The notes under the pieces were generated by a model, which saw only the letters and a program-made list of their open reading frames with translations, had not been told where the DNA came from and made no database searches. A DNA stretch of 39,680 nt from Bacillota bacterium (GTDB taxonomy: Bacteria; Bacillota; Desulfitobacteriia; Desulfitobacteriales; JAJXUE01). Each line of letters opens with the position of its first letter. Position 1 is the first letter of the stretch. Below, piece after piece: positions 38,490 to 39,680 of this stretch. The stretch covers positions 1-39,680 of the forward strand of contig JAJZPO010000020.1 of assembly GCA_021811155.1 (NCBI GenBank), in the 5' to 3' direction. A program made the translations under genes and the position numbers.

Positions 38490-39278
38490 TCAGAATTTGC
38501 CCAGCTCGGCCGGAGCTTGTGGGCAAGCGCAGCTGCGCTCCGGAGTCAGGACTTTCAGAACTGCCGTTATTAGTTCCCTCAACGCTACACCCATTAAAGC
38601 CATATTTGCCACCACTTCCTGATGGCTCAGGGCTGTTGCAGAGATTCCGGCGGCATAATTTGTTATCATGGCAATGGCTGCATAACACATGCCGCACTCT
38701 TTAGCCAATACCACCTCGGGCACGCTGGTCATGCCGACCACTTCTCCCCCCAGAGCCCGGAACATGCGAATTTCTGCAGGGGTCTCAAAGCGGGGACCCT
38801 CAGTGCATACATAAACACCGCCGTTTTTAACCACAACTCCCGCTTCAACCGCTTTTTCTGCTATGACTCCACGCAATTCCCTGCAGTAAGGGTCGGTCAT
38901 ATCTACGTGCAGCACACCCTGTTCCCCGGTAAAAAAGGTTGCCGGGCGGCTCTTGGTAAAATCGAGAAACTGGTCGACCAGGACAAACTCGCCTGGGGCG
39001 AACTTACTCTCCAGCGAGCCCACCGCTGCCGTGGAGATAACCTTCTTGACGCCCAGTTCTTTCAGGGCCCAAATATTCGCCCGGTAATTTACCAGGTGAG
39101 GCGGGACGGAGTGCTCCTCGCCGTGACGCGCTACAAAAGCCACTTTGGCTGCAGAGACCTCCCCGACTGTTAACCTGACCATGCCGTAAGGTGTGTCCAC
39201 CCGTTCCCTGCTCAGTTTACTGAGCAACTCCGGGTGGTCAACTCCTGTGCCGCCGATGACCGCAAAATCAATCCCCAC
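38490..39278 (-). CDS. mtnP: Methylthioadenosine/methylthioinosine-type nucleoside phosphorylase
   Basis: Phosphorylase of the MTAP/PNP family, 262 aa, producing a sugar 1-phosphate and a free base. Seen are IGGTGVDHPELL (phosphate loop), ARHGEEHSVPPHLVNYRANI, CTEGPRFETPAEIRM and GMTSVPEVVLAKE. The base-contact site reads ITNYAAG, with Asn207 where adenine-specific MTAPs have Asp; by family knowledge Asn favours 6-oxopurines. With a deaminase in the operon, methylthioinosine or 5'-deoxyinosine is the probable substrate. Starts at GTG behind AAGGGTG. First gene of the operon. Confidence 0.9.
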   Translation of the reverse strand: MGIDFAVIGGTGVDHPELLSKLSRERVDTPYGMVRLTVGEVSAAKVAFVARHGEEHSVPPHLVNYRANIWALKELGVKKVISTAAVGSLESKFAPGEFVLVDQFLDFTKSRPATFFTGEQGVLHVDMTDPYCRELRGVIAEKAVEAGVVVKNGGVYVCTEGPRFETPAEIRMFRALGGEVVGMTSVPEVVLAKECGMCYAAIAMITNYAAGISATALSHQEVVANMALMGVALRELITAVLKVLTPERSCACPQAPAELGKF

Positions 39279-39365
39279 AAAACCACACCCTTTTTAGGAC
39301 GTAAGGGAAAGAATCCTCCCCATTTCAATGGGGAGATGAATTGCCCAACATACTTTCCCAAAATA

Positions 39366-39374
39366 TGGTATAAT
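39366..39374 (+). promoter_or_regulatory. Extended -10 promoter of the candidate RNA
   Basis: TGGTATAAT, a perfect extended -10 element. It predicts a transcript beginning at about 39381 and running to the right through the hairpin-rich region. No convincing -35 at the standard distance. Confidence 0.55.
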
Positions 39375-39380
39375 ATCCAT

Positions 39381-39680
39381 ACAGAGTTCTTTGAAAACTT
39401 CGGTATGGGGTTGCAACGAATAAATGGGTCGTTGCGTAAAACTAAGTCCCAAAAATCGTAGCCCAGTCGCCTGTGTGCAGGTGCTTCTGCTATGAATTGG
39501 TACACCATATATTCATAGTCAGGCTAAATGACTGGTAACTATGGATGGAACAAAGTATCTGGAAACTCTTAACGAGCAACCAGTAGTGGTGTTGGGCACG
39601 CCAAAGATGTACAGGTTTGGCGGGTGTTCATTCGTCGCCTAGAATCTTGAAGCTCTCCATTTTAATGGAGAGTAGTTCAC
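39381..39680 (+). ncRNA. Candidate multibranched structured RNA (omega-RNA/HEARO-like)
   Basis: About 300 bases without an open frame on this strand but full of nested stems. GCAACGA/TCGTTGC lies at 39413-39435. A closing stem CCAGTC/GACTGG (39463-39535) encloses CCTG/CAGG (39470-39481) and CTATGAAT/ATTCATAG (39490-39518). Then come CAACCA/TGGTGTTG (39577-39594), CGCCAAA/TTTGGCG (39599-39622), and the 3' hairpin 39653-39672 followed by TAGTTCAC. A terminal hairpin followed by a short conserved tail is seen in guide RNAs of TnpB and IscB. The assignment is by architecture only; a riboswitch-like or other RNA is not excluded. Confidence 0.45.

Follow-up and report, generated by a model that had tools for sequence, protein, structure and literature searches.

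The omegaRNA (reRNA) of TnpB derives from the 3' end of the tnpB gene together with the right end of the element that carries it, and its guide is the sequence flanking the element on the 3' side (PMC8612924). TnpB itself is known to excise this RNA from the mRNA of its own gene (PMC10278001). A gene-free IS605 sequence resembling a PATE (palindrome-associated transposable element) has been described in Halanaerobium, where it consists of 28 nt of left end, the last 58 nt of tnpB and the right end (PMC7290912). HEARO, the omegaRNA of IscB, also has stand-alone, multi-copy guide RNA genes that lack a nuclease gene; the guide occupies its 5' end, and iscB comes after it. The boxA site of rRNA operons binds NusB/NusE and can shield untranslated RNA from Rho (PMC4807359). 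This site is reported to occur upstream of CRISPR arrays, and its addition to a synthetic array raised precursor-crRNA about 10-fold; the boxA of the Legionella CRISPR array reads GTTCTTTAAAA (PMC7862264).

The window, which is the whole 39,680-nt stretch of DNA analysed here, has at its right edge a complete non-autonomous IS200/IS605-type element of 383 bp (39298-39680) without a protein gene. Its parts follow one another in the order TTTAG target, left-end hairpin, TGGTATAAT promoter, structured RNA of about 300 nt, right-end hairpin and TTCAC end. The features are listed below; lineage A is that of the window, lineage B is that of genomes G349, G326, G155 and G491, and lineages C and D are those of G248 and G267. 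G000 is the draft genome to which the window belongs.

39293..39297, + strand: target pentanucleotide TTTAG, in the flank and outside the element; the expected TnpA target and TnpB TAM
39298..39680, + strand: whole non-autonomous IS200/IS605-type element, 383 bp, delimited by an empty site, a copy in an RHS gene and partial copies at contig ends
39316..39335, + strand: left-end subterminal hairpin CTCCCCATTTCAATGGGGAG, read from the sequence; in G000:C65 a Y1 transposase gene (tnpA) follows a left end of this kind
39346..39357, + strand: promoter-spacer dyad CAACATACTTTC, operator-like; (A/C)AAC-N4-(G/A/T)TT(T/C) in relatives
39366..39374, + strand: extended -10 promoter element TGGTATAAT, read from the sequence and also found in lineage A, B and C copies
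39385..39398, + strand: boxA-like sequence AGTTCTTTGAAAAC, assigned by likeness to rRNA-leader and CRISPR boxA
39398..39446, + strand: two-helix module, with P1 (39398-39404 / 39441-39446) enclosing P2 (GCAACGA 39413-39419 / TCGTTGC 39429-39435), supported by covariation in 44 copies
39447..39551, + strand: lineage-specific multibranched domain, CCAGTC/GACTGG closing two hairpins, from the RNAalifold consensus of the window, G001 and G023
39552..39680, + strand: probable TnpB-type omegaRNA scaffold and right end, with a hairpin at 39652-39672 and then TAGTTCAC; the guide is expected directly after 39680

The start of the element at GACG is set by an empty site in a genome of the same genus (G001:C204), which reads CCACACCCTTTTTAG followed directly by TTACCGGC where the window reads CCACACCCTTTTTAG followed by GACGTAAGG; the site that is unoccupied in G001 lies between the 3' end of ftsY and the start of mtnP. 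A second copy lies antisense in an RHS-repeat gene and is split between two contigs, one (C109) with the left flank and one (C138) with the right, and when these flanks are joined after TTTAG the sequence reads as an uninterrupted frame, DPLGNTTKFTYN. The right flank of the window copy lies beyond the contig, and the evidence for clean insertion consists of the G001 empty site and the RHS copy. TTTAG lies immediately 5' of GACG or GAAG in every left flank read. Insertion 3' of TTTAG, without target duplication and with an end in TTCAC, is the behaviour of IS200/IS605 elements, and has been described for ISDra2 and IS608 (PMC8612924). Further copies in the same draft genome lie at contig ends (both ends of C109, C138 and C44), and shortened forms, very short and consisting only of left and right ends, occur on C1 and C69 and likewise on G001:C129; no copies were found in the plasmids, phages and IMG/VR sequences searched. 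The boundaries, the empty site and the copies are shown. The tests for a PATE are also met, in that the subterminal hairpins are common to an element with a Y1 transposase, the 5' target is fixed, the empty site is clean, neither tnpA nor tnpB lies within the 383 bp, and the longest stop-free stretches in the copies are short. In another copy (L009, G000:C109, 18293-18419), the element has inserted where a codY-like gene finishes, and the stop codon of that gene comes from the element end (GTGA).

The initial annotation, made from the sequence alone, had described an RNA-like feature at 39381-39680, led by an extended -10 promoter and devoid of plus-strand open frames. The extent held only in part, since the true unit is 39298-39680 and the IS605-type left end had been left out; the feature appeared to lie at the edge because the contig of the window stops exactly at the right end of the element. 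The unit is a repeated mobile element and not a single locus, and the other genomic copies that the annotation had proposed to look for exist. The promoter element is confirmed at 39366-39374, just to the left of 39381. The absence of plus-strand frames essentially held, the exceptions being a frame of 75 aa (39234-39461) that enters the element from outside and, within the RNA, a short stretch left over in frame from the C-terminus of TnpB.

Over 61 nt, the left end shares 95% identity with the start of a copy at G000:C65:1-223 (minus strand), which continues into a Y1 transposase gene (tnpA). The promoter-spacer dyad was found in 22 of 39 distinct upstream regions, against 0.8% expected from shuffling; the copies share descent, so this count is not a test of function. 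Lineages A and B have promoter-proximal sequence with the operator-like dyad in common. As a separate observation, the form AAAC-N4-GTTY lies between -35 and -10, upstream of TATAAT, in most lineage B copies (L142, L143, L162, L165, L176, L179 and others), and the complete element L203 has it too, in the promoter region of its tnpA. By resemblance only, this dyad may correspond to the LexA (SOS) operator of Bacillota, in which case the guide RNA and the transposase would be inducible by DNA damage.

At the opposite end of the element, homology to the C-terminal and right-end region of tnpB in G060 and G071 covers the last 104-127 nt, with identities over the last 120 nt of 82% (G060) and 77% (G071). 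The frames that run into this sequence in the two genomes encode TnpB C-termini (Pfam PF07282, E 2e-19 and 1e-19, respectively). This homology is shown, and the element thereby passes the sequence test for an omegaRNA, which asks for a scaffold with homology to the 3' end of tnpB and the right end. The 3' part of the element is therefore likely to be an orphaned TnpB omegaRNA scaffold; its binding by TnpB and guided cleavage next to the TAM are inferred. A search of the draft assembly G000 with PF01385 and PF07282 found no tnpB, which does not prove absence, since the contigs break inside repeats; the position of tnpA at the edge of a contig is evidence that not all repeats are fully assembled. 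A tnpB with matching ends is present in G326 and G267, both of which carry the 5' module described below, and a remnant is present in G248.

These results support the earlier inference of a guide-type RNA, and among the options that had been offered for it, the right end of a TnpB element and an orphaned RNA fit best. The option of a following iscB or tnpB gene failed, the unit ending in TTCAC at 39680 with no tnpB in its own assembly. The option of HEARO/IscB is unsupported: the covariance-model check that had been proposed found nothing in Rfam even at E<=5, and the element is built as a right end with the guide expected on the 3' side.

The 5' part of the RNA, comprising the boxA-like sequence and two helices, had been missed in the initial annotation. 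Within the boxA-like sequence, GTTCTTTGAAAACT is a 14-nt identity to a site 104 nt upstream of the 16S rRNA of Mesobacillus foraminis (L217), which meets the sequence test for a boxA, and the boxA of the B. subtilis rRNA leader, GATCTTTGAAAACT, differs by one base. The stretch that follows the promoter reads GTTCTTTGAAAAC in lineages A and C, GATCTTTGAAAAC in D and GCTCTTTGACAATC in B, and TCTTTGA is present in most copies of the module. The assignment as boxA is an inference that rests on sequence resemblance, without comparison to the rRNA leaders of the same genomes, and there are no data on NusB-S10 binding or Rho resistance. The evidence for the two helices is of a different kind. In 44 aligned copies, standard pairs occupy 95.6% of the cells of P1 and P2, 10 of the 12 pairs show double changes, and the double-change cells number 56, compared to 12.8 +/- 2.8 in shuffled alignments and at most 12 when the structure is slid. 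These counts are biased towards the structure, because the alignment is fitted to the model and the copies are related, but the contrast with the slid versions remains large. In lineage D both helices are retained although their bases differ, and the covariation across lineages is strong. The module has no Rfam match, and none of 54 tnpA/tnpB loci carries it; it probably stands in place of tnpA-tnpB and is not a remnant of either.

Between this module and the scaffold lies the lineage-specific domain. The stems quoted in the initial annotation are real: GCAACGA/TCGTTGC, CCAGTC/GACTGG around both GCCTG/CAGGT and CTATGAAT/ATTCATAG, and at the 3' side the hairpin GCTCTCC..GGAGAG with TAGTTCAC after it. 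The minimum free energy is -91 kcal/mol, compared to -77.8 +/- 4.5 for dinucleotide shuffles (z -2.9), and none of 200 shuffles is as good. Compensatory changes among the window, G001 (94% identical to the window) and G023 occur in the CCAGTC/GACTGG and CTATGAAT/ATTCATAG stems. Pattern and model scans found the middle domain only in these three genomes, and its pattern was found in only 2 records in 84,980 species, a Bacillota MAG and a Desulfosporosinus MAG. Three peculiarities of individual copies may be recorded here. The domain of the G023 element is interrupted by a 250-bp IS605-like non-autonomous element with hairpin ends of its own (L045, G023:C12, ...GTTCAGCTTTAGCTGAACGAGTTCAC), inserted at TTTAT in a loop of the CTATGAAT/ATTCATAG-type hairpin. 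Some lineage B copies (L163, L164 and L175, in G517 and G514) have a long extra hairpin, CCCAGCACTCAACACCC...GGGTGTTGAGTGCTGGG, in the 3' part of the RNA. In G001, the element of lineage A has a hairpin that begins with the same CCCAGCACTC, where the window has a short stem.

The wider distribution of the 5' module was mapped with covariance models. A first model, built from the window, G001 and G023, found distant copies in other Bacillota families, and a second (R2) comprised the promoter -10, the boxA-like stretch and the two helices. The R2 module was found in 9 of 398 genomes sampled across Bacillota and in 16 of 113 from the class of G349, often in several copies and with up to 8 per genome. 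Those copies whose full sequence was read are non-coding and have hairpins at the left and right ends; some matches have no recognisable right end and are possibly decayed. The module (58-64 nt) is 59-80% identical between lineages A to D, compared to a mean of 45 and a maximum of 58 for shuffles, whereas the last 120 nt are 42-60% identical between lineages, a range at the level of shuffled sequences (mean 47, maximum 58). Compared to the tnpB end of its own lineage, the same 120 nt are 95% identical in G326, 92% in G267 and 77-82% in lineage A. The right ends differ by lineage (TAGTTCAC, GGTTCAC, GTCGTCAC and GTGTCAA), and G523, G556 and G495 seem to bring further types. In G326, the non-autonomous copies match the genome's own tnpA-tnpB element at 74-76% in the left end and promoter and 95% in the right end, with the module replacing the genes. 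In G267 the right ends likewise match at 87%. In G248 both ends match a relative in the same genome, and a relative consisting of left end, tnpB tail and right end is present. One leader module is therefore common to at least four element lineages with unrelated right ends in Bacillota. Two observations concern particular loci: the right ends GGAGGCTTCAC, GGGGTAGTTCAC and GGTGGTCCAC occur with the module at L169 and L180 (G523, which has 8 copies), L173 (G556) and L182 (G495), and in the complete tnpA-tnpB relative L203 (G326:C20) the tnpB frame seems to be broken near the middle into two overlapping frames.

Most probably, these results reflect an omegaRNA gene that stands alone behind a boxA leader and acts in trans with TnpA and TnpB from genes located elsewhere. 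The RNA gene would have replaced tnpA and tnpB within the 383-bp element. Transcription from the extended -10 promoter would open with the boxA-like site and the two-helix leader, and the RNA would then pass through the lineage-specific domain into the omegaRNA scaffold, which in the parent element lies at the tnpB 3' end. The transcript would cross the right end into the flank, the first 16-20 nt of which would become the guide. TnpA in trans would mobilise the element via both ends, as is inferred from the conserved ends, the target and the empty site, and TnpB in trans, once bound to the RNA, would cleave the emptied donor site (TAM TTTAG plus flank), thereby favouring retention of the element. 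The leader would most likely recruit Nus factors, so that an untranslated transcript, like those of rRNA and CRISPR arrays, would escape termination by Rho, and the element would be retained as well as a copy with tnpB while being only a fraction as long. Transcription, processing, Nus factor binding, antitermination, TnpB loading, guiding and cleavage are all inferred, without RNA data. The lack of a TnpB gene in the assembly of the window counts against this explanation, as the partner there is not shown and may be either unassembled or truly absent. In a bolder reading, for which the evidence is evenly balanced, the leader is a transferable guide-RNA expression cassette: different IS605 lineages would have joined one boxA/P1/P2 leader to their own TnpB omegaRNA, giving nuclease-free elements that use TnpB in trans via rRNA-like antiterminated transcription. 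Since the leader is common to at least four unrelated lineages, guide RNAs may have been uncoupled from the nuclease gene in a standard way.

One alternative is a plain PATE or MITE, an IS605 element that has lost its interior and relies on TnpA from elsewhere to move it, its right-end RNA being a passive leftover without function. TnpA needs only the left and right ends, hairpins and target, very short ends-only copies are present in the same genomes, and PATE-like elements that retain a tnpB tail and right end are known (PMC7290912). This reading is nevertheless unlikely, because the module is no remnant of tnpA or tnpB and is absent from all 54 of their loci, its helices are preserved by many compensatory changes across lineages, and it occurs with at least four unrelated right ends. 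Less probable again is that the structured RNA has some role besides guiding TnpB; it could be a decoy or regulator, binding TnpB, TnpA mRNA or Nus factors and so damping autonomous copies. In favour of this, the scaffold is retained even though the RNA is uncoupled from tnpB, the long 5' extension is unusual in an omegaRNA, and inhibition of cleavage by part of the tnpB mRNA has been described (PMC10278001); against it, the scaffold reaches the right-end hairpin and the element end, so that each copy presents its flank as a guide.

An origin as a HEARO/IscB omegaRNA, or as a fragment of an IStron group I intron, has only length and branching in its favour and can be all but dismissed. The HEARO model (RF02033) gave no match at E<=5 in this stretch of the window or at E<=1 in four distant relatives, no Rfam group I core was matched in the same sequences, and the homology is instead to tnpB right ends. 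An intron that splices is also difficult to reconcile with a promoter inside the element and with insertions antisense in coding genes, as in the RHS copy. Rfam scans at curated and permissive thresholds returned nothing relevant, the one weak match (sRNA-Xcc1, E 0.28) falling on the left-end hairpin, and no tRNA or tmRNA was found.

If the preferred reading of a boxA-led omegaRNA gene is correct, it describes a recurrent, conserved route to an omegaRNA without tnpB. Guide and nuclease would then be encoded apart within transposons, as is the case in CRISPR, by means of a leader signal also used by CRISPR arrays. The use of TnpB in trans by nuclease-free elements then becomes directly testable in genomes that have both. 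The module is in addition a defined RNA motif, absent from Rfam, that marks candidate trans-acting guide genes in many Bacillota. Neither stand-alone TnpB guide RNAs nor the association of boxA with TnpB was found described in the open-access literature searched.

Among known systems, the ISDra2-type TnpB omegaRNA (reRNA) has the same 3' scaffold homology to the tnpB 3' end and right end, the same hairpin followed by the element end, a guide expected from the 3' flank and a target motif 5' of the element; the element described here differs in having no tnpB, its own promoter and about 190 nt of additional structured 5' leader with a boxA-like site. A PATE has in common with it a left end, a tnpB tail and a right end, the lack of genes and presumed mobilisation in trans, but whereas the Halanaerobium PATE is described as an ends-only deletion, the present elements add a conserved RNA module and keep or gain a promoter. 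The boxA sites of rRNA operons and CRISPR arrays (PMC4807359, PMC7862264) similarly lie near the start of a long untranslated transcript, of the guide type in the present case as in CRISPR, while here the P1/P2 module follows the boxA-like site directly and the whole is borne by a transposon. The element is accordingly best classed as a non-autonomous IS605 element carrying a TnpB omegaRNA; what is new is the conserved module with boxA, found repeatedly on IS605 ends that are unrelated to one another.
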